A stretch of DNA of 64,000 nt, from positions 7,682,501 through 7,746,500 of the forward strand of contig CM048847.1 in the NCBI GenBank assembly GCA_026545225.1, in the 5' to 3' direction. Shown here one piece after another: positions 32,761 to 64,000 of this stretch (the first letter of the stretch is position 1; each line of letters starts with the position of its first letter). The position numbers and the translations under genes are program-made. The stretch comes from Cornus controversa (taxonomy: Eukaryota > Streptophyta > Magnoliopsida > Cornales > Cornaceae). The notes beneath the pieces were generated by a model. The model was not told the DNA's origin and did no database searches. It saw nothing but the letters and a program-made list of their open reading frames with translations.

Positions 32761-34318
32761 ACAAGTGAAGATTAATTTGCCACTCCTTGATGCCATCAAG
32801 CAAATCCCTCCTTATGCTAAATTTTTGAAGGACTTGTGCACTTAGAAAAGGCGTTCTAAAAGTTATGTGCCAAAAAAGGTGATGCTGCCACAACAAGTGA
32901 GTTCTATAATTCAGTAGTGCACTCCTCCCAAGTACAAAGATCCTGGTGCCCCAACTATCTCATGCATCATTGGGAAGCACCATGTTGATAAAGCTCTTCT
33001 TGATTTGGGTGCAAGTGTGAATTTGCTACCCTATTCAGTCTACTTACAATTGGGCTTGGGAGAATTGAAGCCTACCTCGGTGGTATTGCAATTTGTAGAT
33101 AGATCAACAAAGCAACCCCGAGGAATCATTGAAGATGTGCTCATTAAAGTGGACAAGTTCTACTTTCCTGTTGATTTCATCGTACTTGACACTGAGCCGA
33201 TTTATAATCCGAAGAGGCATATCCCAGTGATCCTTGGTCGACCTTTCTTAGCTACTGCGGATGCTTACATAAATTGTAGGTCGGGGATCATGGATATTTC
33301 ATTTGGCAACATGAAGGTTAAGCTTAATATTTTCAATGCTATTGAGAATCCTCCAGATCAGACTGATGTCTTCTTCATAGATTCTGTGGATATGTCTGAA
33401 TCTATAGATAAAATAAAGGTGCAAGAAAAATAGAAGGAAAAGAAGGGGTTCAAAGATCATGTTTCTACCATTGTGGTAGGTTCTGTATCCACTAAACCTT
33501 CCAAAACACTTCAGAGTGAGCAATTGTTTGGAGTATCCGACAACTCCACACCATGGTATGCAGATATTGTGAATTATTTAGCCACGGGAAAAGTGCCACG
33601 AGACTGGACCAAGCGAGAACGTGATAGATTCTTCTCTAAAGTTCATCATTACTTTTGGGAGGATCTAGAGCTATTTAAATATTGTCCAGATCAGATTATT
33701 CGGCAATGTGTCCCAGACCATGAGTTTCAAGATATTTTCAAGTTCTGCCACTCATTAGCATGTGGAGGCCACTTTAGTGCAAGGAAGACAGCAGCAAAGG
33801 TACTTCAATGTGGATTCTTTTGGCCTTCTCTGTTTCATGATGCATATATTTTTTGTAAAACTTGTGATCACTGTCAAAGATTGGGTTCAATGTCGAAGCG
33901 CAATATGATGCCAATGAGCCCCATTCTGGTGATTAAAATTTTTGATGTTTGGGAAATTGATTTCATGGGACCTTTTCCACCCTCTTTTGGGTACGAATAT
34001 ATTCTAGTTGGTGTGAATTATGTCTCCAAATGGGTGGAGGCCATTGCCACTCGAACCAATGATCACAAGGTGGTAATCAAGTTCATGCATGAGAATATTT
34101 ATAGTCGATTCGAAATTCCTCGAGCCTTGATCAGTGATGATGGTTCTTATTTTTGCAATAAATTCTTAAGAGGTTTGCTTGCTAAATATTCAGTGACATA
34201 TAAGGTGGCAACACCTTACCATCCTCAGACAAGTGCGCAAGTAGAGCTGTCCAATCGAGAAATTAAGCATGTTCTCGGAAAGACAGTGAGACCGGATAGA
34301 AGAGATTGCTCATTGTGA
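32761..34318 (+). pseudogene. Athila pol parts of element C (protease and integrase)
   Basis: The protease area shows [20 protein letters not shown] near 33000 and [29 protein letters not shown] near 33220-33310. From about 33500 on, integrase is recognised by the zinc-binding stretch [21 protein letters not shown]...CKTCDHCQ, then [28 protein letters not shown] and [19 protein letters not shown]. No reverse transcriptase core was recognised. It is broken. The frame is interrupted by element D and element-like integrase tail resumes at 48451. Confidence 0.87.
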
Positions 34319-34395
34319 CTGAGTGAGGCACTATGGGCATATCGGACTGCTTACAAAACTCCTATTGGTATGTCACCATATCAGTTGGTGTATGG

Positions 34396-34400
34396 GAAAG
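34396..34400. other. Target-site duplication of element D, left copy
   Basis: gaaag directly precedes the D LTR and is repeated at 48451-48455, both within integrase sequence of element C. Confidence 0.93.
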
Positions 34401-35971
34401 TGTTATGCTTGGAAAGGTTATTTGTTTTACCAAAATAATTCTTGTCCAATTCTTAATAAATCACTCGCAATAGCACGAATCTTTGTAAGATAGGGCTCTT
34501 GTGAAGGTGTCGATCCCACAGAGAATGTGATTAAATTAGTCTCATTTGATTCATTGAAAGAGAGGTTAATATTTTTGGTCTTTGTTTAACATAAAATAAA
34601 TGGCACTAGTTAAAGTTTGAATTGATAAATATAAGAGGGACTAGGGTATTGATTTCACCACTAGCCTCACATCAATGGAAGAATGTATTTCAACTTGGGA
34701 AAGTTACATATGTATAATCATTATTCATGGGATTTGTCACATACCACCATGATATCTTCAAGAAAATACATAAATCAAAAGATAAGAATAATTCATCTCT
34801 AGTTAGTATGAATCGTCTACCTAACTAGTTAAATAAAAGACATAACATGAAATTAAAAGTGTAGAACGATTCATCTTCCTTAAGCATGAATTATCAAATC
34901 TAATGAATTTATGTTCTAATAAAACTATTGTATAACTTTCATACTTTATAAGATAAGAGAAGAATGAAGTCAAGATTAAACATAACTTTATACTTCAATT
35001 GCAAATGCAATCCTCAAAGTTATACAACTTATTATACACATATAACAATCCCAAATAAAAATATTATTATCATACCATTGATGCTTGACTAGGACTACAT
35101 CAATGCCCTAGGAAGAGTTTTAGCTCCTCATGGCTAACTTACAAGTCTTCATAGTTGAAGAACACTTCTTATTTCTATATGTGTGCAGAATATTTCCACT
35201 CACTTCTCCTCTCTACACTACTCAATTCCCCTCCATTTATAGCCAAAGTTAGTGCAATATGAGTGTCTACCATTTCTTCCACTAAAACTCATCCTATGGC
35301 CTAAATAGCTCCATATGTATTCCATTTAGAAGAATTGGATCATCTCCCTACATGTGTATAGCACTTTGGTGAATTAATTGAGTGGGGTGGTTGCTTGTCA
35401 TCTCATTGGTCACTTGTCACAAAATTTTCAAAGCAACCAAAGAAAAATCTGCCCAGAATATTTATCCTACTGTTTTGTCCACTTTCAACCACCCAGATGT
35501 CAGAATTAGAGATTTCTCAAAACTAAACGTATTTAGAACTCTCTTTTATCTTTCCATAGCCACAAAAATCGCCTTAATTAGAATCTGGAGCATGAAGTTA
35601 TGGTCAAAATACAAACAGTGCGCAGATCAGAATTTTGAACGAATTTTGGGCTTGAGATTAGTCTTGCACTTGTACTTGACCCAATGAATGAACCAATTCA
35701 GATTTTTGGCCCCTTTTGCATTAAATCTTCAATATAGCTTGGCCCAATCCATGGACTCATCATTGGAATTTGGCCCAAACTAATGGCAATTTCTTCTTCT
35801 TATGGAAGCCTCATTGAAAGCCCAAGAACCATGGAATTAACCACTATTTCATCTAAGGATCTGAAAATGACAAAAATAGAATAAAACTATAAAAATACTA
35901 ATATAAACATAATTAAAGGATTAACATATGTAAATTAGAATGACTGAATGCACAACATTCTGTGCTTATCA
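34401..35971 (-). repeat. 3' LTR of element D
   Basis: It is 1571 bp with plus-strand ends TGTTATGCTTGG...GTGCTTATCA. The complement of the polypurine tract, cacccccaaactt, follows on the right. Confidence 0.95.
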
Positions 35972-37766
35972 CACCCCCAAACTTACATATTGCTAGTCCT
36001 TAGCAATATACAACAAGAAAAATAAAACAACTTTCCTCTTTCGTGGGAAATACGATTGCATTTAGCAAATGCAACAAGCCTTTTAAACCCCTAGGCATCC
36101 CTAGTGGACGAGTGAAGTCTCGTGAGGGTTTAGCAGATATGTTACCCACAAACATCAAGTGATAATAATTACACTCAATAAAATTTTCTCCATTTAATGT
36201 GCAACTAGCAAGAATACTTTAATCAATCCACTTCAGTATGTAATAAAGGTCGAAAGATTCAATACTATCCAAAAATTAGAAAATTTCATTACTATTATTA
36301 ACTCAGAGTGTGTGTGTGAATATAGCCTGAAAATATAATTCTCAAATTAAAAGCGACTGTAGTCCAGATTTCTTTAGAAAATTAGCTTTGATCTCAAATC
36401 TCACATATGATATTTCACTCAAAATAAAGTACTCAGAGATTGGCTAATTTTCCACTCAAGTATATATGAGAAGAATAATGTAAACAAGTGCAAATTATCT
36501 CACATATGATTCATCTGAAGGACCGCAAATACATGAAGGAACATGTAGTCTCATGAAAGGGATATCAAACATTAAGAATTTATACCACAACACTATAGCT
36601 CAGTCATGACTGTTTTAGAACCATACCATCCTTGAGATCAAATAGGGCTTTTACTAGGATGTAATGTTAGGTAAAAAGAGGATAAAAAGGTGATGGTGAT
36701 ATTGAAATGGGTATTCGAGAATGCTTGGGAAAAGCCAATTCATTAGAGCACATTGCATTCAATTTCTTCTTACTTTTGTCAATTAATTCTTTTTGTATAC
36801 ACATCTTCAGCAAATCCATACCTTCTTTTCTTCACTTTTCTTTTTCTATTTTTCTTCTATTTTTTTTTCTATTGATCAAATCGATTCCGAAACACTTTGA
36901 TAAAAGGGTTATGAAAGGAAGGTTAGCTAAAGCTCAACGGGTTCACTAGTGGTATTGCATTACCAAGAAAAGAAATTTAAAGGCTAAAAAATATCCAAAG
37001 ATGGCCTAAAATCATTTCTCAAGGATTAGTATAATTCTTCAACAAGTGTGAACTTAAAAGATAGTGTGGCATAAAATTCCCAATATTTGATCAAAAGAAA
37101 AAAAATAATGAGACCGATCAACAAATTATGCGAACTCAATGAAAATTTTAGAATTTAACCTTTTAACCCTCAAAATAATAAGAATATTACAAAAGCTCAC
37201 TGGGTTAAATCTCCACTTTTATTCTTCGGATTTCTAACATGCAGTCACTCATCAATTTCAAATTATATCGAAGGGCTATCGTGAATAATATTGTTCTGAT
37301 TTTTAAAATTCATGAAATTTATTCTAATTAAAAGATAGGATAAAATCTATAAAACATACTAAAGCTTCAAGATTTTCAAAAATTATTTGCACATTGAAAA
37401 TAGAAAAATCAAATCATAGTGTAAAAATTACCAATATATTATTATTATTATTATTTTCACAAAATTGTTCTTCCTTACCCCCAAACTTAAATCACACATT
37501 GTCCTCAATGTGTAACAAAAACATAAAGTATATGGTAAGTGATAGAACAATATTACCGTGGTGGTAGAAATATCAAAATCTAGTTAAGCATCCATAAGGG
37601 TTAGCCATCCCCCCAAACTTGGATACAAGAACCTCTCATGCAGAACACAATACATACCAACCAAGGCAACAAAATTAATCGGAACATCCAAAATAAGTTA
37701 AACACAAATTAAGAACAAAAAATCAAGATTTCATCATTCATCTAAAGTAAGAACATGTTGCTTAAT
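35972..37766 (-). other. Noncoding 3' region of element D
   Basis: No coding frame is supported. It holds the complement of the polypurine tract at 35972-35984, a further cccccaaactt near 37612, the conserved hairpin block at 37477-37513, and an att repeat at about 37438-37456. Confidence 0.75.
37477..37513 (-). other. Conserved hairpin plus polypurine-like block (element D)
   Basis: On the minus strand it reads acacattgaggacaatgtgt then gatttaagtttgggggta, with an eight-base stem acacattg/caatgtgt and a loop agga. It is the best-paired member of the block also seen in A, B and C. Confidence 0.78.
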
Positions 37767-38360
37767 TTATGAATGACGTAGATAGGAAGAAACAATTGAT
37801 TGGAACTCATTACCATCATCTTGTACGATGTTTGGATCCATAAACTGATTTTGACAATAAGACATGGTGTCAAAATTGTTGCATAAGTCTTGGTTCAGTA
37901 GTGGTGCCATATCCACATTTTCAGATGGAACCCAGCTTTGAACATGATTATCGGGTGGATGTGATGAAAAGTTTCCTTCAAAAATATTATTAGGGTTTAT
38001 ACTGGAGGAGCTAGAAGCAAAGTTTTGAGCTGCTAGGTGACTGAGAGAAACCAGTTGTGCTTGTAGATTGAGAAGTTGCCATTCAAGAGAAAGAATATAT
38101 GAAACGCAACCAAAAATGGGATCGTGAAGCCTAGCTTGAGCTTCATATGCCATAGTTAGAACAGCTGTACCTCGATGTTCTACAGGGAGATGAGCAAGGA
38201 TTTTTGAGAAGTTGCGATACCCAAAAATTTTATGGATGGCAGCAAAAGTGTCTATACTATCTTCATGGCAAAAATAAGGAGCACAAATGCAATACTTATC
38301 ACATTTGTTTCTCAAGAATTTGCAAACACCACAAGGAGTTTTAGACATTTTGGATAACAC
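37767..38360 (-). CDS. LOB-domain (LBD) transcription-factor-like protein carried by element D
   Basis: This is a 197-residue frame in the sense orientation of element D. Residues about 9-25 hold the plant-specific LOB zinc-finger-like motif CX2CX6CX3C ([15 protein letters not shown]) followed by APYF. The GAS block follows with [21 protein letters not shown], where the usual GAS is GYR. After [15 protein letters not shown] the hydrophobic heptad region [20 protein letters not shown] fits the LBD leucine-zipper-like helix. Family members bind DNA in the nucleus and dimerise; many control organ boundaries and other development. Length and order fit a class I LBD, closest in feel to LBD23/24 types. 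A TATA-like aaatatatatttttt complement lies near 38397-38412. It is intron-free in this stretch. Capture from a host gene is inferred. Confidence 0.85.
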
Positions 38361-38707
38361 GAAGAAGAAACACAGATTGCTAACACTTACTCTTTCAAAT
38401 ATATATTTTTTTTAATCAAACAAATTCTTTTCACTTTTGGGGTAAAAGAGTGTCTCACACATGCATTGTACCTATATTGCACATATTCCAAACATGCCGC
38501 CACACACTTAATGATGTCATTGACAAACAAGCCATCTATGTTTGACAAAATGACCTAACCTAGCTCTAAAAGCATTGATTGGATAGATTTCGTAATTTGA
38601 GATGCATAATTGGTGGGCAAATTTTTTATGCATTTGAAGAGCAGATTTTTTTTTAATATTGGAACATTGTTGTATCTATCTATCTTCTTCACCACAAGCT
38701 CTCAAAA
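38361..38707. promoter_or_regulatory. Shared spacer between divergent LBD and coiled-coil frames
   Basis: The 347 bp lie between the two start codons. Next to the LBD start is a TATA-like tatatattttttt stretch (about 38400-38412). Near the plus-strand frame are tctatctatcttcttcacc pyrimidine repeats 20-30 bases before its ATG. The layout suits a bidirectional promoter, but no element is proven and TATA-like runs are common in AT-rich DNA. Confidence 0.35.
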
Positions 38708-39280
38708 ATGGCTTCCTCTTTTGTTTCCAAAAGTCACTTCGATTTAAATGTGTTGCCGGAGGTGCCATCAACCAATGTTGGGCAGGCAACATTCCTATCC
38801 TCTATTGATCCTCACCCAGTGGAGGAATCCGTGATGCTGAATGATACAACTGCTACGAGAGCAGCTAAAAATTTGCTGACTCCTCAAGATAAAAGAGTTT
38901 TAGCAAATAGGTCTGACATTATGGCAATTGATGACTCTTTGACTCTCAGCATTCGGTCGGCTGCGTCGATTTCAAACATAGGCCAACGTTTGTTAGCAAG
39001 AACAACTGAAGTTCAGATGCTAACAACTAACGTTAAAGTTCTTCAGAAAAGAATTAAGGAGTCTCAGAAAAAAAATAGAGAACTAAAAGCAGAGAATAAA
39101 CAGTTACGAAAGCTTGTAATTGAGTATTCTAATGACATGAAGACGAAGCTGGATGAGCTACAGAGTTCCAGTGATCAGATTCAGGAGAATCATGGGAGAC
39201 TCATAGCTATTGTCGCGAAAAATCCTTCTTTTTCTTATTCAAAACAAAATTACTATCAGCCTATTGAAAGTCAGTGTTAA
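38708..39280 (+). CDS. Antisense coiled-coil frame with EAR-like DLN motif in element D (190 aa)
   Basis: This frame runs opposite to the element's own transcription. The N-terminus MASSFVSKSHFDLNVLPEVP has a DLNxxP-like EAR motif, known in plants for binding TOPLESS-type corepressors. Residues about 105-165 form a leucine-rich coiled coil (TEVQMLTTNVKVLQKRIKES, then NRELKAENKQLRKLVIEYS). No DNA-binding domain is seen. Its start is 347 bp from the start of the divergent LBD frame (38360), so one spacer could serve both. Antisense extra ORFs between pol and the 3' LTR are known in related Tat-group elements such as maize Grande, but I recognise no homolog of this one. Translation is inferred. 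Confidence 0.55.
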   Translation: MASSFVSKSHFDLNVLPEVPSTNVGQATFLSSIDPHPVEESVMLNDTTATRAAKNLLTPQDKRVLANRSDIMAIDDSLTLSIRSAASISNIGQRLLARTTEVQMLTTNVKVLQKRIKESQKKNRELKAENKQLRKLVIEYSNDMKTKLDELQSSSDQIQENHGRLIAIVAKNPSFSYSKQNYYQPIESQC

Positions 39281-39875
39281 AATCAATGGCACATTTATTG
39301 CTGGCTTTTTGAAATATTTATGAAAAATGTCATGCTCAATTCTTTTTTTTTTTTTTTTTTTTTAAACTTAATCTTCACGGGTACTACTTTTCTCTCATTC
39401 TCTGAACTGGTGGTTCCCAATTTTCCAAGATGTGTATGTGATAAGATATTGATTATCCAGACACGCTAACGTATAGAGTACAAAGGGGTTGCCTTTCTTT
39501 ATTAAAGTCATACTGTGTTGAAGCAATCTCGACAGTACTGGGTATCGAAACCAGACTTTAATAAATGGAAATCATCAACTTTATCAATCATATCACAAAT
39601 TATAGAATTGGTACTACATACATAGTCAGAGAATGGGTGGCTATGCTAGACAGTTATGAATTCTATGTTTTTTTTTTTTTTTTTTTTTTTTTGAAATCAG
39701 AATGAAAAGAAAAAAAAAAATTTTTAGAACAAACATTAACACAAAATTAAAAATTTCAAAACAAAAGAAAGATGCATAAGAAAAGGTGAACAAGAATGAC
39801 AAAAGGAAATGAGTTACCCCCAAACTTGATCCTAAGTAACGACAAGAATACATATCATCCCAAGTTAGGGTCTTC
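39281..39875. other. Spacer with two long T runs in element D
   Basis: No coding frame is supported. A T run lies at about 39340-39363, just after the antisense frame's stop, and a second at about 39668-39692. On the plus strand gagttacccccaaacttgatcc near 39812 repeats the polypurine-complement word seen elsewhere in Athila 3' regions. Confidence 0.5.
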
Positions 39876-40193
39876 CTATCGAGGTGGATCTTTTCCATAC
39901 AACCGAGCACGATCTTGGTAAGAACGAGGAGTACAGTAATAAACCATGAATGGTCGGCCATAATCGCTCAATGGTTGCAATCCGGGGCAGGTTTCAGAGA
40001 GACAACTCTTACACCATCCCAAACGCTTGGCTTTACGTCTACGAGCAAATGATGACTTTCCATTAAATGCACTCGTCCTTGCAAGGATGTCTTCTTGAAG
40101 GTGCAATGGAAGTTTATCCCATAAAGAAGTCACTTTGATTTTTGGACGCCAAACCAAAGTGATTTTTTTATCATTGGTGGACGATGGATCCAT
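39876..40193 (-). CDS. Unrecognised 105-residue Cys-containing frame in element D
   Basis: I do not recognise this protein. It starts MDPSSTNDKKITLVWRPKIKVTSLWDKLPLHLQEDI and continues with a basic stretch SSFARRRKAKRLGW. A cysteine group CKSCLSETC is followed by a third-type Cys in VYYCTPRSYQDRARLYGKDPPR. The CX2CX4C spacing plus the later Cys could bind a metal; that is inference. It lies about 410 bp downstream of gag-pol in the same orientation, and it has no counterpart in elements A, B or C. It could be a captured host fragment, an element-specific accessory protein, or a chance frame. Confidence 0.45.
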   Translation of the reverse strand: MDPSSTNDKKITLVWRPKIKVTSLWDKLPLHLQEDILARTSAFNGKSSFARRRKAKRLGWCKSCLSETCPGLQPLSDYGRPFMVYYCTPRSYQDRARLYGKDPPR

Positions 40194-40606
40194 GAAAAAT
40201 CTGTAAATAAAAAAATTTGGGGCTAAAGCAATCTGTTGCCTATAGTAATAATACTACTATTGTATCTTATCACCAAAAGAAAAGAAAATGCAAAATTTAT
40301 AAAAATGACTCTTTTAACGTCAGATTGTCAAGACGTGTTGAATACACCATTTCTGGTCAAGCTTCCTTCAATAATGGATAGCTGCTGGTTATGCCGTTCC
40401 AGCTCGTCAATTGCTTTTTGCTACCACTCGTGCAAAAGGGAAACCTATAAAGCTAGGTAGGCCATTTCCTAACGCTGAGTTGGGTTCAGGTCCCTAATGG
40501 CTCGCATATACAACCAATTCCTGGAATCTCATCTTTATACTCCTCGCCAAGCAAAAGGAGTGAATGACCCAAGTTTATCGTCTAGGGTAGACATGATGAT
40601 GTCTCT
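40194..40606 (-). other. Spacer after gag-pol of element D
   Basis: No coding frame is supported. On the plus strand the sequence shows only short AT-rich stretches, and no polypurine tract or hairpin block was found here. Confidence 0.5.
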
Positions 40607-43600
40607 CTAGTCATAATAAACAGGATCCGTCAAGTTAACGGATTCAACATCTTCTGCTTGCACAGTATCTTCTACATAAAGCTTCAATCTTTGACCATTG
40701 ACCTTGAAAAGATTATCATTCTTAGGATCTTGAAGTTCCACAGCTCCATAGGGAAAAACAGATGAAATTATGAAAGGACCATCCCAACGTGAACGAAGCT
40801 TTCCAGGAAAGAGGTTTAATCTAGAATTGAACAACCAAACTTTCTGTCCTGGAACAAAGGTTTTATTCACAATATTTTTATCATGAAATGCCTTCATTTT
40901 AGCTTTATAAATTTTGGCACTTTCATAAGCATCATTTCTCATCTCTTCAAGTTCATTCAATTGGAGTTTTCGGGTTGAGCCAGCCATTTTCATGTCAAAA
41001 TTGAATTTCTTAATGGCCCAAAGAGCTTTGTGTTCTAATTCAACTGGGAGATGGCAAGCTTTCCCGTAAACAAGACGGTAAGGGGTCATTCCAATGAGAG
41101 TTTTAAAGGCAGTTCGATAGGCCCAAAGTGCATCATTTAGTCTTAAAGACCAATCTTTTCTGTCCGGCCTAACCGTTTTTTCAAGAATATGCTTTATTTC
41201 CCTATTAGATACTTCAACTTGTCCACTTGTCTGAGGATGGTAAGGTGTAGCTATTTTATGAGTAACAGAGTATTTGATGAGCAAGGTTTGAAGAAACCTA
41301 TTACAAAAATGTTTACCTCCATCACTTATTATTGCTCTCGGTGTACCAAAACGAGTAAAAATGTTAGTTTGAATAAACTTAATCACAACTTTGTGATCAT
41401 TCGATTTGGTGGCAACCGCTTCAATCCATTTAGATACATAATCTACGGCCAACAATATGTAGTCACATCCAAATGATGGTGGAAATGGTCCCATGAAATC
41501 TATACCCCATACATCAAAGATTTCAATAATTAAAATGGGATTTAAAGGCATCATGTCTTTCCTAGACATTGATCCTAATTTCTGACATTGCTCACAAGCT
41601 CGACAAAAATTATAAGAATCCCGAAATAATGATGGCCAAAATAATCCACTTTGTAAAACCTTTTGAGAGGTCTTTTTAGCACTGAAATGTCCTCCACATG
41701 CTAAGGTGTGACAAAAAGTAAGAATACTTTGAAACTCACTTTCAGGGACACAACAACGGATTATTTGGTCTGGACAGTATTTAAACAATTCAGGATCATC
41801 CCAGAAATACCTCCTTATTTGGGAAAAGAATCGATCTTTTTCTTGTTTGGTCCAATTCAAAGGAATTTTACCTATTGCTAAGTAATTCACAATGTCAGCA
41901 AACCAAGGTACTTTCTCATCAGTAATTGTCAATAGTTGCTCATCAGGAAAGGAATCATGAACTGGGATGGAATCAGAGGATTTAATGATAATACGAGAAA
42001 GATAATCGGCTACTACATTCTCAGAACCTTTCTTGTCTCGTATTTCAAAATCAAACTCTTGAAGCAAGAGTATCCATCTAATCAAACGGGGCTTGGTTTC
42101 TTTCTTGGCTAGCAAATGCTTTAAAGCAGCATGATCAGAATACACAACTACCTTGGATCCTAACAGATATGATCGAAATTTATCCAAGGCAAACACGACG
42201 GCCAATAATTCCTTCTCAGTTGTGGTATAATTCAACTGAGCATCTAAGAGGGTTTTACTAGCATAGTAGATAGCATGAGGAAGTTTATCTACACGTTGTC
42301 CTAGGATAGCTCCCATAGCATATTCGGATGCATCACACATGATCTCAAATGGTAAAGACCAATCAGGAGGTTTCATAATTGGGGTAGAGGCTAGAAGAGA
42401 ACGGAGCTTTTCAAAAGCTTCAAGACATGTTTTATCAAAGTTGAAAGGAGTATCTTTGGCAAGTAAATTGCACAATGGTTTAGCTATCTTGCTAAAGTCT
42501 TTGATAAATCGACGATAAAATCCTGCATGTCCAAGGAATGATCTAATTTGCCTCACCGATGTAGGTGGTGGAAGATTAGAAATGAGTTCAACCTTGGATC
42601 TATCTACTTCAATTCCTCTTTTTGACACAATGTGTCCTAATACAATTCCTTCTTTTACCATGAAATGACTCTTCTCCCAACTCAAGATCAAATTTGTCTC
42701 TTTACAACGCTGAAGAACAATTGACAAATTTTGGAGACATTTTTCAAAAGAAGGTCCAAAGACTGAAAAGTCATCCATAAAAACTTCAAGAAATTTTTTC
42801 ACCATGTCCGAAAAAATAGACATCATACACCTTTGAAATGTTGCAGGTGCATTACATAACCCAAAGGGCATTCGTTTATAAGCAAATGTTCCGAATGGAC
42901 ATGTGAAGGTTGTCTTCTCTTGATCCTTTGGATCGACAGCTACTTGATTATAGCCAGAATATCCATCTAGAAAACAAAAGTAACTCTGACCAGCGAGACG
43001 TTCTAGGATTTGATCAATAAATGGTAAGGGAAAATGATCCTTCTTAGTTGTAGAGTTGAGTTTTCTGTAATCAATGCACACACGCCAACCAGTTGTTGTT
43101 CGTTGCGGAATTAATTCTCCAGTCGAATTCTCAACTATGGTGATTCCAGACTTCTTAGGTACCACTTGAATGGGGCTCACCCATTTGCTATCAGAGATGG
43201 GATAGATGATTCCTGCATCTAACAACTTGACTACTTCCTTCATAACAACTTCTTTCATATTTGGATTCAATCTTCTTTGTACCTCACGAGATGGTTTAGC
43301 ATTATCCTCCAGATGAATGCGATGCATACAAATAGAAGGATCGATTCCTTTTAAATCAGCTACAGTCCATCCAATCACCTCTTTGGGCAGTCGAAGTACA
43401 GTCAACAAACTACTTTCTTGGTCCTTTGTCAAGTCTGAAGCAATGATAACTGGAAGAGTTTCATTAGAACCTAAGAAAACGTATTTTAGCTTATCTAGAA
43501 GTGGTTTGAGCTCTAATTTGGGTGGGGATTCAAGGGATGGAATTGAAGGAGTACTAGACAATAACGGAAGTGGCTCCTTTGACATTTTCCATGGTGAAAA

Positions 43601-46204
43601 GTCCATGATAGTATCAATCTCAAATGCAGAATTGACTTCACTATTTTCGATGTCATATCCTTCAAAATCATAGTGAGTCAAGAATGCCTCTAAAGGGTCT
43701 TTCGATAAAAAGGATGAAAGTGAATCTTCAACCATTTCATCAATGATGTCAAGGGAGAAGCATTCTTTTACATCTGACGGATGCTGTGAAGCATTGAAGA
43801 CATTCAATCTTACATTCATGTTCCCAAAAGATATGTCCATAACCCCTGTTCTGTAATTTATGCATGCATTAGCCGTAGCTAAGAAAGGTCGACCAAGGAT
43901 TATAGGTACATATTTTTTTGGATTTTGGACTGGTTCGGTGTCAAGGACAATGAAATCAACTGGAAAGTAGAACTTGTCTACTTTGATGAGAACATCCTCA
44001 ATGATTCCTCGAGGTTGCTTAACCGATCTATCTGCAAGTTGTAGGACAATTGGAGTTGGTTTAAGCTCTCCTAAGCCTAACTGCGAGTATACTAAGTAAG
44101 GAAGTAGATTAACACTAGCACCTAAATCAAGTAGGGCTTTTCCAATTTCATAGTTTCCAATGACACACGAGATTGTAGGAGCACCAGGGTCCTTGAATTT
44201 TGGAGGTGTGTTGTACAGCAGTATGGAACTAACTTGCTCAGTGAGAAGAATTTTCTTTGGAACATGACTCCTTGATTTTCTCTTCTGTGTACACAAGTCC
44301 TTGAGAAATTTGGAATATGAAGGAATTTGTTTGATTGCATCAAGAAGAGGAAGATTAATCTTAACTTGCTTGAAAACTTCCATCATGTCCTGGATCTTTT
44401 CTCCTTGCTTTCCATAACAGTATGGTTCTTTGAGACGTTCAGGATATGGAGCTTTGGGCTCATATCCGGTCTTAAGAATGGGAATAGGTGAAGAAAGAAC
44501 TTCATTCCTGACTTCTTTGTCCTTTGACAATTGTTTCACCAAATCTTTTGGATTTTGGGGCAAATTATTTGGATTTTTAGGAATTTCTTTTGGAACTTTT
44601 GGAATCTCATTTTTTTCATCTTCCTTTTTCTCAATCTTGTTATCTATCTCCTTCCCACTCTTAAGGGTCATGATGGCTTGGACATGCTCATGATGAGAGG
44701 AACTAGATGTATTCTCATCAATCATGTATTGTCCTTTTGGTTTAGGATTGACCACTGGCTGACTTGGAAGTTTTCCCTCCTCTCTTCTATTCAAAGAATT
44801 AGCTATTTGCCCGATTTGGGATTCTAGCTTAGAAATGGATTGAGAATGAGAATATAGCAATTGAGTATTTGACTCAAGATTGCTCAATGCAACCAACACC
44901 TTGTCTTCAAAAGCTGAATGCCTAGGAAGTGGAGTTGTTTGGTTCTGGTGTTGTTGAGAAGGTTGGTAATTGGATGAGGGATTGAAAGAATGACTATTGG
45001 ACGCAAAATTGGACTGTATGGGTTGTCCAATAGGTTGAGGATTTGAATTTCCCGTAGCTTGGGGTCTCCATGAAAAATTAGGATGATTTCTCCATCCCGG
45101 GTTATAAGTATTGGAATATAGATTATTCCCTGGTCTAGAAAAAGTAGCATTCACTTGTTCTTGCCCAAGTTCAGAAAATTGGCCAATGATTTGACAATCT
45201 TTGGCATGATGTGATGGACTAGAACAAAATGAACACAACTCAGGTGGCACAGATGACTGAGTAGGAGGTGCTTGATTTGCTGCCATCAATTGATCCAGCT
45301 TCTTTGACAATGCATCCACTTTAATAGACACATCTACTGAATTGCCTACTTCAAAGAGACCTTTGACCTTAGAACAACTAGATGAAGCATGATGCATCGA
45401 ATTTTCACTAAGATTCTCAAAAAGTTTCCAAGCTTCACTTTCACTCTTTAGCATGAATGTTCCACCACAAGAGGCATCAACCATTTGTCTATGTGGTTCA
45501 GTTAATCCATCATAGAAACATTGCACCAATTGCCATTTTGGGATAGCATGATGAGGACACTTCCTAAGAAGATCTTTCAATCTTTCCCAAGTTTCATAGA
45601 AATGTTCTCCTTCACTTTGTGCAAATCCAGTGATAGATTTTCTAATTTGATTGGTTTTTCCTATAGGAAAGTACTTCTGGAGGAACTCTTGTTGTAATTG
45701 TGTCCAAGAAGTAATCGTGTTATTTTCTAAGGATTTCAACCAATGCTTAGCTTTGTCTTTCAAAAAGAATGGAAAAAGTTGCATCCTTAAGGCATCTTCA
45801 GTAAAACCTTGCATCCTTAGGGTAGAGCAAATTTCAAGGAATTCATCAAGGTGCCTATATGGATCTTCATTATTAAGTCCATAAAAAGATGGTAACATTT
45901 GGATAACACTGGACTTAATTTCATAATGGGTGGCCGTTACATTTGGTAATTGAATTCCTGAAGGAAAGTTGTATGTGGTAGGAATGTAATGATCCCGAAG
46001 GAGCATTGGTCTTTCCTCAACCATTATGGGTGGTAGAACTTCTTCTACAATTACTGGTCTTACACCATCTTCTGCCATGTTTTCAATTGAAGATTCTCTA
46101 GGTAAATTAAAGTCCCTTACAGTTCCTTTAAGATGCCTAAGAGTTCTTTCAAGATTAGGATCTAATGGAAGTAATGGTAGTGATAACGAATGACGACCAA
46201 ACAT
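40607..46204 (-). CDS. Athila gag-pol polyprotein of element D (1865 aa)
   Basis: A single frame encodes all core parts in Gypsy order. The start [23 protein letters not shown] matches the other Athila gags here. The gag core is at about residues 85-280, and a CX2CX4HX4C knuckle ([14 protein letters not shown]) at about 340. The protease has DLGAS in place of DTGAS at about 695. Reverse transcriptase shows [20 protein letters not shown] and FMDDF (about 1143), and RNase H shows [15 protein letters not shown] (about 1290). Integrase has its zinc-binding N-terminus at about 1500, catalytic-type positions in GIDFMGPF (about 1567), ISDGG (about 1631) and GQVEVSN (about 1663), and a long C-terminal tail. 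Such proteins act in virus-like particles in the cytoplasm and then in the nucleus. The frame appears whole. Confidence 0.96.
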
Positions 46205-46854
46205 AAACTAACAAACAAAATAAGAAATCAAACATACAAAAACAACCAAAAAAATAAATTTTTTTTGTTTTTTATTTATTTATTTTAAAAACTACTTCTC
46301 TTTGGATTTTACAATTAATAGATTACCGATTAAGAGCCTTTAAAACGAGAACAAAGTAGTACATATGAAAGGAGGAGAAACACTAGGCTTGCTTAATGAC
46401 GGAACATCCAAGCTTTCATATTAACTATCCTTCGCCACTCAAATTAAAGGGTACTCACTGGAGTGACTAAAAATTGAGTCCTTCGGAGAAGAAAATCTTT
46501 TTTTTTTTTTAGAATGAAAATAGTAGTAATACTCAAACAAACACACTAAATATAACGGCAAGAAAATAAGTAAACAATGTAAATTGCAAAACTTACCCGA
46601 TGTCCTTGAAAGATCAACTCTCAAGGGTGCCGATGTTGAACATGAGATTTGACAATTCACAAAAACAAACAAAACAAATATATATACTAAAAAAAAATTT
46701 TAAAACAATGTAAAATACAAGACTTACCCACTTTCTTTTGAAAGATCAACTCTCAAAGCTTGTAGCAACTCTTGTACCTTCACACTTAACAAACAAATTA
46801 TATACCAAAATATTTACAAATCCTAACTATAATCAAACAAGATTTAATCAGCAT
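46205..46854 (-). other. 5' leader of element D between primer site and gag
   Basis: The leader is about 650 bp and AT-rich. It contains two related copies of 'acttaccc...tttgaaagatcaactctcaa' (near 46590-46625 and 46722-46757), a direct repeat that might belong to packaging or leader structure. No coding frame is supported. Confidence 0.5.
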
Positions 46855-46872
46855 TCCCCGGCAACGGCGCCA
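46855..46872 (-). other. Primer-binding site of element D
   Basis: The minus strand reads TGGCGCCGTTGCCGGGGA, the Athila tRNA-Asp-type consensus. Confidence 0.92.
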
Positions 46873-46877
46873 AAAAT

Positions 46878-48450
46878 TGTTGTGCTTGGAAAGGTTATTT
46901 TGTTTTACCAAAATAATTCTTGTCCAATTCTTAATAAATCACTCGCAATAGCACGAATCTTTGTAAGATAGGGCTCTTGTGAAGGTGTCGATCCCACAGA
47001 GAATGTGATTAAATTAGTCTCATTTGATTCATTGAAAGAGAGGTTAATATTTTTGGTCTTTGTTTAACATAAAATAAATGACACTAGTTAAAGTTTGAAT
47101 TGATAAATATAAGAGGGACTAGGGTATTGATTTCACCACTAGCCTCACATCAATGGAAGAATGTATTTCAACTTGGGAAAGTTACATATGTATAATCATT
47201 ATTCATGGGATTTGTCACATACCACCATGATATCTTCAAGAAAATACATAAATCAAAAGATAAGAATAATTCATCTCTAGTTAGTATGAATCGTCTACCT
47301 AACTAGTTAAATAAAAGACATAACATGAAATTAAAAGTGTAGAACGATTCATCTTCCTTAAGCATGAATTATCAAATCTAATGAATTTATGTTCTAATAA
47401 AACTATTGTATAACTTTCATACTTTATAAGATAAGAGAAGAATGAAGTCAAGATTAAACATAACTTTATACTTCAATTGCAAATGCAATTCTCAAAGTTA
47501 TACAACTTATTATACACATATAACAATCCCAAATAAAAATATTATTATCATACCATTGATGCTTGACTAGGGCTACATCAATGCCCTAGGAAGAGTTTTA
47601 GCTCCTCATGGCTAACTTACAAGTCTTCATAGTTGAAGAACACTTCTTATTTCTATATGTGTGCAGAATATTTCCACTCACTTCTCCTCTCTACACTACT
47701 CAATTCCCCTCCATTTAGAGCCAAAGTTAGTGCAATATGAGTGTCTACCATTTCTTCCACTAAAACTCATCCTATGGCCTAAATAGCTCCATATGTATTC
47801 CATTTTAGAAGAATTGGATCATCTCCCTACATGTTTATAGCACTTTGGTTAATTAATTGAGTGGGGTGGTTGCTTGTCATCTCATTGGTCACTTGTCACA
47901 AAATTTTCAAAGCAACCAAAGAAAAATCTGCCCAGAATATTTATCCTACTGTTTTGTCCACTTTCAACCACCAAGATGTCAGAATTAGAGATTTCTCAAA
48001 ACTAAACGTATTTAGAACTCTCTTTTATCTTTCCATAGCCACAAAAATCGCCTTAATTGGAATCTGGAGCATGAAGTTATGGTCAAAATACAAACAGTGC
48101 GCAGATCAGAATTTTGAACGAATTTTGGGCTTGAGATTAGTCTTGGACTTGTACTTGACCCAATGAATGAACCAATTCAGATTTTTGGCCCCTTTTGCAT
48201 TAAATCTTCAATATAGCTTGGCCCAATCCATGGACTCATCATTGGAATTTGGCCCAAACTAATGGCAATTTCTTCTTCTTATGGAAGCCTCATTGAAAGC
48301 CCAAGAACCATGGAATTAACCACTATTTCATCTAAGGATCTGAAAATGACAAAAACAGAATAAAACTATAAAAATACTAATATAAACATAATTAAAGGAT
48401 TAACATATGTAAATTAGAAGGACTGAATGCACAACATTATGTGCTTATCA
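46878..48450 (-). repeat. 5' LTR of element D
   Basis: It is 1573 bp with plus-strand ends TGTTGTGCTTGG...GTGCTTATCA, nearly identical to 34401-35971. The primer site lies five bases from its inner edge. Confidence 0.95.
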
Positions 48451-48455
48451 GAAAG
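48451..48455. other. Target-site duplication of element D, right copy
   Basis: gaaag matches 34396-34400. Confidence 0.93.
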
Positions 48456-48906
48456 CATGTCATCTTCCAGTAGAGATTGAGCACAAGGCACTTTGGGCAA
48501 TCCGAAAATTCAATTTTGATGCAAAAAGAGCTGGGGAAGAGAGAAAGTTGCAATTGAATGAATTAGAAGAGTTTAGACGTGATGCTTATGAAAGTTCATG
48601 AATTTACAAAGAGAGGATGAAGGCATTTCATGATCGACATATCTCACGAAAGTCCTTCTCTCCAGGTGATAAAGTATGGCTCTTCAATTCAAAGCTTCAG
48701 TTGTTTCCCGAAAAATTGCGTTCAACGTGGGATGGACCATTCCAGGTGATTTCAGTTTTTCCTCATGGTGCAGTGGAAATTCGAAGCTTCTGAGATAATA
48801 CTTTGATGAAAGTAAATGGGCAAAGGTTGAAGCATTGTGTGGAAGGATGTGTGCCAAGAAGAGACGTAGAGTCCGTCGACTTGATGGATCCTGTCTATCC
48901 GACTTA
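48451..48906 (+). pseudogene. Integrase C-terminal tail of element C
   Basis: It resumes right of element D with [21 protein letters not shown], the family's conserved integrase tail, then [19 protein letters not shown] and [22 protein letters not shown]. The end [22 protein letters not shown] precedes a stop at 48904-48906, matching the end of pol in B. Broken lightly. Confidence 0.85.
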
Positions 48907-54845: not shown

Positions 54846-57497
54846 TGTCACGCCTCGGAATCCGGACCGCAGGGACTCCCCCGGACCGACCCCGAATCCC
54901 GAGTGTGAACCCATTCACTCAACCCCATGAACTATCTCAAGCATACTCATGCGATAGTATCAAGGTCTAATACCAAGTTAAAATGCCCCGATTTCTAATT
55001 CTCGGAGAACCGGAGGTTAAACATCCATTTAAATCCAGTGAACCCTCATTACACTCATTTTCAGTGGAAGCTTAACTTAACTGTTGCATATAAATGCACA
55101 CAACCACTCATCAACCAATCCCCATGGGCCCTACATTGATTCACACACTTTAAAGAACATTTACATGTCCACACCTTTGGAAATCACTCACTTTCGAGCC
55201 TCAAAACTTTCTGTGTTTGGAATCTGAAACTGAGGCTTATCCCATTGGATAGAGAATCCAAAAATACTCAAGTTCAAAAAAAACCACACTCAATTCCGAT
55301 CTAGAACGAAGAAATTACGTCGAAACGAAGTTTTGGAAAAAGCTGTGAATAGTAATTTCGATCAATCGAAATTGGCATTTCGATCAATCGAAATTCATCT
55401 CGATTAATCGAGATTTTGACCCCATCAATCGAAAAAAACAGCCTCTCGGTACCTTGGACCTGCAATATTTCGATCAATCGAAATGGGGACTTCGATTGAT
55501 CGAAATTACCCCATTCTGGACCTCAAAAACACTCAGATTTCGCAACCATTTCGATCAATCGAAATGGGAGTTTCGATCAATCGAAATGGACATTTCGATT
55601 GATCGAAATGCACTTCCCAGCAACTCCAAAACACCTATACAAGATCCATTTGAACTCAAATCTCAACCAAACCACCTTGGATCATTCATAAAATATATAA
55701 ATCATCCCCCAATGATATAAAATCATACTCACACATCAACCTACACATTTGAATCTCAAATCTTGTATAATCATAGAAAACTCATCCTAAATTCTCAATG
55801 CACCTAAAATTCAAGTGCATGAACCATCCTCATTTTCCAAGGATCATATTCATCAACTCATACATACAACCTAACTCATACATCAAAATCCTACAACCGT
55901 GATTTCAATATAAATCCACTCTTCAAAACCTTCGTGTCCAAGAGTTCAAGATATAAAAGACAAAAAGGATACATTCATCCATTTAAGCTCCAAATTCATA
56001 TAAAATCCATGAAACCATACACATAAGGATTCAAATGAATATACAAGTTACATATACCATGAATGTAACTATAAATCAACATAATCCACATGCCACATGC
56101 CGGCATGGATAGCCAAAAACATAATCCATACATATATCTCAAAAGATCCCCAAAATGCACCAAAATGCTCCAAGTAAGGAAGCAAGCTCTTTTCATCCAT
56201 TCTCGGCTTCTTACCTGAAAAAAAATGTTTGGGGGAGCGGGGTGAGCAACACTGCGGCTCAGTAGAGATGCCCCTCCCCTCCTAGGTGCCGACCCGACAC
56301 CGACCTACATGTCCCTCACTACATGGCATGTAAAATTCTTTCATGCACACGACAACATACAATTCAAGTATGAACGCACTCACTCATATATCATGTTTTT
56401 CAATGCATATCATTGCTATAACAAGCCTAGCATACATTCTAACATTCAAGACAACACATGGTCACATATATGTCATAAGGCATGCATATCACTCTCATAT
56501 GCCTACTAACCACAACCTAGCATATTTTGATCATGCTTCAACAACACACACACTTGCTATAAAATAACCTAGCATGCATTCAACATTTATACACAAACAC
56601 AACCAACATATAATCATATGATTGCACCCCAAAATACACATAACCCACATTTGCATATGATACACAATATAGCTAATCATGCTCTCATTTTGCACACTTT
56701 GCACATATTCAACCCACACATCATATATTCATCAAAATGGATCTATCTAGCATGCATAATCACAAGGGAAGAGGAAATATAAAAAATTCAGCCCCTTGCC
56801 CATCTCTCTCACATACAAACTCAACCGAAAACCTCTCCGAACCACCCAAAACCCTAGAATCGACAACTAGAAGAGAAGAAACACCCCTACCTCGAATTTC
56901 CAAGCTTTGAATCCAACTTTGAGAAATCCCAACTTTCTCAACTTCACGAAATGGAGACTTTGATCGGTTCAAACCGATGCCCTTGATGTCCCCTACACAC
57001 TTTCCTTCTTCGGCGAATCACGAATCCAAGCCGAATGCACCCGAAATGTAGAGAGAAGGTGGAGGGATGAAGTGGGATACGTAGAGAGAGAGAGAACCGT
57101 GAGAAATGAGATCTCAGATCTCCCTGGGATATTTATTCCAGTCCTAGGGGCGCAAAATGACCAAAATGCCCCCAAGTCACTTAACGTACCTTCCCGGGCT
57201 CCTTTTTCGATTTCGAAAACTCCTACGGCCTCGAAATCACTTCCTTAACTCATTAAACATTTCGTTACACTCAAAATCAAAAATAATTATTTTTCGGAAA
57301 TTTTCCGAATTTCCGGGCCCCTGTTTGACCAAAAAGTCAAACTTCTCCAAATTTTCCAAAAACTTCCAAAAACCTCATAACATGTTTCCAAACATGTTTT
57401 CCACTCTCGAAACATCCAAAACATCATTTGAAATGCATTTATAGCAAAAATGATGAAAATTTTTGAAAACCGGTCAAATTTGGTTCCAGTCTCTACA
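54846..57497 (-). repeat. 3' LTR of element E
   Basis: It is 2652 bp with plus-strand ends TGTCACGCC...CTCTACA. The complement of the polypurine tract, acctccccaccttt, follows at 57498-57511, which sets the right edge. The first 1387 bases match 62612-64000. The five bases ctatg to its left would be the target duplication. Confidence 0.85.
55353..55610. repeat. Cluster of ATTTCGATCAATCGAAAT palindromes in 3' LTR of E
   Basis: Nine copies of a near-palindrome lie in about 260 bp, starting near 55354, 55377, 55398, 55423, 55467, 55489, 55548, 55571 and 55592. Some copies are inverted (cgattgatcg for cgatcaatcg), which the near-symmetry allows. The arms atttcgat/atcgaaat pair fully with a two-base centre. 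Confidence 0.9.
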
Positions 57498-62611: not shown

Positions 62612-64000
62612 TGTCACGCCCCGGAATCCGGACTGCCGGGACTCCCCCGGACCGACCCCGAATCCCGAGTGTGAACCCATTCACTCAACCCCATGAACTA
62701 TCTCAAGCATACTCATGCGATAGTATCAAGGTCTAATACCAAGTTAAAATGCCCCGATTTCTAATTCTCGGAGAACCGGAGGTTAAACGTCCATTTAAAT
62801 CCAGTGAACCCTCATTACACTCATTTTCAGCGGAAGCTTAACTTAACTGTTGCATATAAATGCACACAACCACTCCTCAATCAATCCCCATGGGCCCTAC
62901 ATTGATTCACACACTTTAAAGAACATTTACATGTCCACACCTTTGAAAATCACTCACTTTCGAGCCTCAAAACTTTCTGTGTTTGGAATCTGAAACTGAG
63001 GCTTATCCCATTGGATAGAGAATCCAAAAATACTCAAGTTCAAAAAAAACCACACTCAATTCCGATCTAGAACGAAGAAATTACGTCGAAACGAAGTTTT
63101 GGAAAAAGCTGTGAATAGTAATTTCGATCAATCGAAATTGGCATTTCGATCAATCGAAATTCATCTCGATTAATCGAGATTTTGACCCCCATCAATCGAA
63201 AAAAATAGCCTCTCGGTACCTTGGACCTGCAATATTTCGATCAATCGAAATGGGGACTTCGATTGATCGAAATTACCCCATTCTGGACCTCAAAAACACT
63301 CAGATTTCGCAACCATTTCGATCAATCGAAATGGGAGTTTCGATCAATCGAAATGGACATTTCGATTGATCGAAATGCACTTCCCAGCAACTCCAAAACA
63401 CCTATACAAGATCCATTTGAACTCAAATCTCAACCAAACCACCTTGGATCATTCATAAAATATATAAATCATCCCCCAATGATATAAAATCATACTCACA
63501 CATCAACCTACACATTTGAATCTCAAATCTTGTATAATCATAGAAAACTCATCCTAAATTCTCAATGCACCTAAAATTCAAGTGCATGAACCATCCTCAT
63601 TTTCCAAGGATCATATTCATCAACTCATACATACAACCTAACTCATACATCAAAATCCTACAACCGTGATTTCAATATAAATCCACTCTTCAAAACCTTC
63701 GTGTCCAAGAGTTCAAGATATAAAAGACAAAAAGGATACATTCATCCATTTAAGCTCCAAATTCATATAAAATCCATGAAACCATACACATAAGGATTCA
63801 AATGAATATACAAGTTACATATACCATGAATGTAACTATAAATCAACATAATCCACATGCCACATGCCGGCATGGATAGCCAAAAACATAATCCATACAT
63901 ATATCTCAAAAGATCCCCAAAATGCACCAAAATGCTCCAAGTAAGGAAGCAAGCTCTTTTCATCCATTCTCGGCTTCTTACCTGAAAAAAAATGTTTGGG
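62612..64000 (-). repeat. 5' LTR of element E (cut by window end)
   Basis: Plus-strand start TGTCACGCCCCGGAATCCGG; it is near-identical to 54846-56232 and still matching at the last base of the window. Confidence 0.9.
63121..63378. repeat. Cluster of ATTTCGATCAATCGAAAT palindromes in 5' LTR of E
   Basis: This is the same nine-copy cluster as at 55353-55610, with the copies themselves unchanged. Confidence 0.9.

Follow-up and report, generated by a model that had tools for sequence, protein, structure and literature searches.

The locus described here raises the question of how a frame for a LOB-domain regulator came to lie within a long terminal repeat (LTR) retrotransposon, and whether the element has kept it for a use of its own. 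The window, meaning the whole stretch of 64,000 nucleotides that was analysed (C3:7682501-7746500), belongs to a genome of 771.7 Mb in 61 contigs, and the same genome was searched for relatives.

The element and its LOB frame

The element, D, has the following parts:

34401..48450, minus strand: whole Athila-type Gypsy element D with TG...CA ends (from the LTR pair and the ends)
46878..48450, minus strand: 5' LTR of D (98.99% identity to the 3' LTR)
34401..35971, minus strand: 3' LTR of D (from comparison of the LTR pair)
34396..34400, no strand: left copy of the target-site duplication GAAAG (read at the element end)
48451..48455, no strand: right copy of the target-site duplication GAAAG (read at the element end)
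46856..46872, minus strand: likely primer-binding site TGGCGCCGTTGCCGGGG, just inside the 5' LTR (read from the sequence)
35972..35985, minus strand: G-rich stretch directly before the 3' LTR, a likely polypurine tract (read from the sequence)
40607..46204, minus strand: gag-pol frame, 1865 aa (from the list of open reading frames and a profile search)
37767..38360, minus strand: LOB-domain (LBD29-type) frame (from PF03195, the list of open reading frames and alignment with host LBD29 genes)

An LTR pair, a target-site duplication and a gag-pol frame with reverse transcriptase before integrase place D in Ty3/Gypsy. Its description as a 14 kb Athila-type element takes the type label from the first-pass annotation and from general anatomy, and a profile scan of four frames listed no match to the Athila ORF-1 domain. 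The LTRs, each of about 1.57 kb, differ by 14 mismatches over 1577 aligned columns. The primer-binding site is presumably of Asp-tRNA type. Gag, reverse transcriptase, RNase H and integrase were recognized in gag-pol by profile search, with protease below the cut-off. The LOB frame had been placed on the sense strand between pol and the 3' LTR, in an element bounded by LTRs and a 5 bp duplication, and this placement was confirmed: gag-pol lies on one side of the frame and the 3' LTR on the other. In position and orientation it fits the env-like extra frames of Athila, Bagy2 and other elements, which are likewise sense and lie between pol and the 3' LTR; in the available part of PMC7264820, however, those frames are described with transmembrane similarity, whereas that of D specifies a LOB protein.

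Several further features were observed around and within D. Its flanks (33550-34400 and 48451-48898) show homology to neighbouring segments of the pol of D itself, the two matched segments overlapping by five bases (41059-41063), and D therefore seems to have inserted within the pol of an older relative. Direct repeats of 99.3% identity at 54846-56233 and 62612-64000, the latter reaching the window end, may be the LTR pair of another young element. Directly after pol lies a sense frame for a basic, cysteine-containing protein of 105 aa (39876-40193, minus strand) with a weak match to PF01623, a carlavirus nucleic-acid-binding profile (23.7 bits, cut-off 20.9). Between pol and the LOB frame there is also an antisense frame of 190 aa with a coiled-coil-like product (38708-39280, plus strand); as a second conserved gene it was rejected, being stop-free and full-length in just one of 50 copies.

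The LOB frame has 197 codons when counted from a GTG, as in the list of open reading frames, but the protein likely starts at the ATG of codon 5 (38348), which is kept in 57 of the 58 copies read and gives 193 aa. The identification of a LOB domain is borne out by the PF03195 profile, which matches residues 9-106 over profile positions 1-97 of 99 with 105.5 bits against a curated cut-off of 24.2 (E 2.4e-30). This score, and the presence of 73 other near-full-length copies in the genome, exclude a chance frame. The sequence also matches the Ramosa2 LOB domain (PDB 5ly0, E 7.5e-25), and the same structure is the top Foldseek match of the AlphaFold model (E 9e-8; TM-score 0.68 by target length and 0.39 by query length). 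The model has block means of pLDDT of 79-91 over residues 1-70, with a poor C-terminal half and overall values of 59.7 for mean pLDDT and 0.40 for pTM.

CX2CX6CX3C is the defining zinc motif of LOB proteins. Of the sequence marks that the first-pass annotation had pointed to, this motif is read in the translation, with all four zinc cysteines in 54/58 copies, and a coiled-coil helix is predicted for the product of the window copy, where a zipper-like helix had been noted. The GAS-like block aligns, but reads GYR in 45 copies (the window copy included), GYS in 11, and GYC and GYI in one each. The proline P77 is kept in 58/58 copies, and RNKC replaces RRKC in 57/58.

Presence across the element family

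A search of the genome with the LOB protein gave at least 151 matches; 150 of 263 candidates were scored, so the copy counts are lower bounds. At least 74 copies, including the window's own, are near full length (coverage of at least 190 residues, identity of 81% or higher), and 53 of the 74 lack a stop. Copies were also collected with the non-coding stretch between the LOB frame and the 3' LTR as the query, which avoids choosing by intactness. This yielded 40 places among the matches listed (40 of 1155 candidates scored), 38 of which reach the edge of the LOB frame; the other two are partial, stop short of the frame and were left out. LOB sequence stands at the same position in all 38 of these listed copies (23 intact, nine full-length with stops, six partial or split).

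A third search, for which the C-terminal 300 residues of pol were the query (131 of 13,488 candidates scored), gave two groups among the matches listed. Of the 64 rows at 87-100% identity, 56 are followed by a listed LOB match within 9 kb on the downstream side, and in the sister family at 81-82% none of the 67 listed rows has one, although at the scope of these listings (131 of 13,488 pol and 150 of 263 LOB candidates) a rarer or more diverged LOB sequence could escape. Eight of the 64 closer relatives have no listed LOB match within that distance; two of these have one on the same strand 11-15 kb off with no listed pol row in between, and in a third the match, at 10.6 kb, adjoins another pol row.

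The LOB frame is thus a trait of the element family and not the property of a single copy. Of the outcomes that the first-pass annotation had named as refuting its reading, the lack of a LOB match and the restriction of the frame to this copy are both contradicted. That a host gene came by chance to lie in or beside one element is ruled out as practically impossible by the shared position in 38/38 copies and by the absence of the intron described below.

Two other loci deserve mention. At C7:50015739-50016638 (plus strand), another of the eight exceptions, there is a pol relative of 97% identity with an open gag-pol frame of 1866 codons and no LOB match within 30 kb among the matches listed, possibly a family member without the LOB gene. 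At C6:36349517-36375289 three LOB copies on the same strand, spaced by about 12.6 kb, are nearly identical (3 to 5 differences per roughly 3550 bases), as in a tandem array of elements with common LTRs.

Donor gene, route of capture and relatives

Two host genes of the same protein type, L059 and L060, have two exons each, with intron borders CAG|GTTTAG at the start and GCAG|GTTGT at the end. The frame of D runs continuously across the host splice junction and the intron is exactly absent, which indicates that an LBD29-type gene was captured through a spliced mRNA. DNA similarity to L060 forms two blocks of 75% that cover the coding sequence, the L060 stretch compared having short flanks only and ending before its stop codon. 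In a tree of 49 LBD proteins, the element proteins sit on a long branch with L060 (support 95/80), inside a Cornus florida b LBD29 clade (100/98), so the proposed placement among host LBD proteins has been obtained. This tree, with an identity of 86% to C. florida, suggests a host in Cornus or close to it. The claim that D captured an LBD gene and kept it open is accordingly upheld by the intron loss at the junction, the position in the Cornus LBD29 clade, the family-wide presence and the lack of any indel in 50 copies. The capture looks old, since dS is 0.46 for D against L060 and 0.395 for the two host paralogues against each other, though substitution rates may be higher in the element than in the host.

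Two relatives bear on this history. P0001, a 936-base record taken from a protein database in which open frames alone are listed, specifies a protein with 68% identity to the LOB product over 98% of its length and has the derived residues of the element in common. The same genome also holds a second intronless, multi-copy lineage derived from LBD29, here called E, with at least 62 matches at 70% or more DNA identity to its member L077 (40 of 156 candidates scored). One stop or more interrupts each of L075, L076 and L077, the members that were read, and the best preserved of them has a C-terminal stretch that is absent from D. Members of E join the element clade at 99/93. Separate captures of the D and E lineages were considered and rejected (p-AU 0.044 and 0.047 for the alternatives); the tree prefers one capture for both, a preference that may be affected by the long branches in play.

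Constraint on the frame and candidate roles

All of the 50 best copies are complete over the 594 nt and free of indels, while each 200-nt bin of their flanks contains between 5 and 67 separate indel events. These copies are the best protein matches and lean towards intact frames, so the fairer figure is that of the flank-selected set, in which 6/38 are partial or split. A codon model was fitted to two host genes together with 58 copies, on a tree of fixed topology and fixed branch lengths; omega was 0.28 in the host, 0.42 on internal element branches (against 1, 2 delta lnL 7.6, p about 0.006) and 0.74 on terminal branches (2 delta lnL 4.1, p about 0.04). On the stem it was 0.61 and not clearly below 1 (2 delta lnL 3.4, p about 0.07), and the internal and terminal values did not differ significantly (2 delta lnL 2.75).

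Variants were also compared with the spectrum of mutations seen in the flanks. Amino-acid changes are depleted among singletons, both in the 50 copies (omega about 0.60, p 0.015) and in 28 of the 38 flank-selected copies, the set that corrects for ascertainment (omega 0.62, p 0.034). Variants found in two or more copies have no clear deficit in either set (omega 0.73, p 0.23, and omega 1.06, p 0.62, respectively). An excess of synonymous over nonsynonymous changes between copies, proposed earlier as a mark of retention, is seen in the 50 young copies (pooled pN/pS 0.46) but not in the eight divergent ones (1.18).

The stem that leads from the host gene to the point where D and P0001 part has about 0.61 amino-acid changes per site, or about 118 changes. 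These sit on sites slightly more variable among host proteins than the unchanged ones (p 0.027), and sites that differ between the element and P0001 are not more host-variable than those of young singletons (p 0.63). Of 70 positions that are invariant in the hosts, 20 have a different residue as the most frequent one in the element, although at four of these 20 the host residue is still present in 11 to 20 copies. We read these results as making a weak long-term constraint probable but not proven, with evolution faster than in the host. As to relaxed codon evolution, which the first-pass annotation had named as a point against its reading, the outcome is divided: shared variants and the site tests show little constraint, while the internal omega of 0.42 speaks for some.

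It is possible, if rather unlikely, that an LBD29 gene was simply amplified by chance on a successful element and that its frame is open merely through the youth of the copies. The family is young (LTRs 99.0% identical), the divergent copies are decaying with pN/pS near 1, shared variants lack a deficit of amino-acid changes, host-invariant sites have been lost, and the sites that changed show no stronger constraint than those of new mutations, all of which would suit such a passenger. It fits less well with the internal-branch omega, with the absence of indels in the 50 copies (themselves chosen by protein match) or with a frame that stayed open along the stem, where the flank spectrum of 8 stops per 128 amino-acid changes predicts about 7 stops; this last argument is weaker because the finding was noticed through the open frame.

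We consider, with moderate confidence, that the frame is an old, retained, captured gene of LBD29 type in an Athila-type family, probably specifying a nuclear regulator or dimer partner. A spliced host mRNA would have been acquired by an ancestor of the family, presumably by template switching during reverse transcription. The family has since kept the additional gene, open in most copies, in sense orientation after pol and ahead of the 3' LTR. With the zinc cysteines and the predicted coiled-coil helix kept, nuclear DNA binding or pairing with LBD proteins would be the most likely activity, and the product may enter the nucleus and there bind DNA or pair with host LBD proteins. Proteins of the LBD29 type function in the formation of lateral roots and callus. 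The most likely benefit would be a shift of host gene expression in this programme that favours transcription or inheritance of the element, and it is plausible from the sequence that the element spreads a DNA-binding regulator, as had been suggested.

Distinctly less likely, the shortened and altered protein might mainly compete with host proteins of the LBD16/18/29 type and not act as an activator. The helix is kept while the surroundings of the zinc motif are altered (RRKC to RNKC in 57/58 copies, GAS to GYR or GYS in 56/58), and a C-terminal stretch is absent by comparison with host L060, which speaks for such interference; but the zinc cysteines and P77 are kept, and so is the C-terminal end, which reads YLRHS against YLQHS in a Withania LBD. 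It could also be speculated that the element is a counterpart of retroviral oncogene capture, in which an altered LBD29-type regulator would push cells to a proliferating root-founder or callus-like state favourable to the element, although we regard this as quite improbable.

Use of the protein for D's own transcription, another early suggestion, gained no support. LBD proteins bind a motif with a CGGC core. The sole GCGGC of D's internal region (38496-38500, minus strand) belongs to a well-conserved stretch some 140 nt upstream of the LOB frame, and might allow the protein to bind the element's own LTR or internal DNA and drive its transcription. One internal site is anecdotal, however, and neither LTR contains a CGGC, where 2.1 would be expected from mononucleotide shuffles, so that action on its own LTR is unsupported and autoregulation as a whole appears very improbable.

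The capture of genes by plant Gypsy elements is already known; here the captured gene is for a regulator of the LOB class, and both its donor and the path of its capture can be seen. Steinbauerova et al. reportedly described in 2011 Gypsy elements with LONELY GUY (LOGL4, YgdH) extra frames. Like D, these are plant Gypsy elements with a host-type gene as an extra frame, but they carry a cytokinin protein and D a LOB-domain regulator, for which donor and intron loss have been traced. According to the available part of PMC9289625, 121 angiosperm genomes were screened and 15 extra domains found in Gypsy elements, including YgdH (LONELY GUY family), B3 and an AlkB-type demethylase; the term 'LOB' is absent from its main text. 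The orchid Gypsy elements with an AlkB-type m6A demethylase, as presented there, are like D multi-copy and have kept a captured domain, and both this domain and the LOB domain are likely to act on nucleic acid; protein and plant group differ, and the orchid case includes work with purified protein whereas D is known from sequence alone. LTR elements of Aegilops tauschii with B3, in the same part of that source, resemble D in having a DNA-binding domain of plant transcription factors inside the element, but there it is a domain match alone in consensuses, while donor, intron state and selection are described for D. A plant survey (PMC6317226), in the part available, counted extra frames only from 250 codons upward and would therefore miss a frame of 197 codons. 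In the literature on LOB/LBD genes and retrotransposons no such capture was found among the titles.

The extra frames of plant LTR elements are, in the available part of PMC7264820, described as often without known origin or function. Here, a single genome shows the donor gene, the spliced-mRNA route, retention across the family, and sister families that either have the gene or lack it, and since these are visible together, the benefit of a captured regulator to its element becomes testable. If the LOB protein works, one element family would be spreading a developmental regulator, in dozens of copies, across the genome of a plant.
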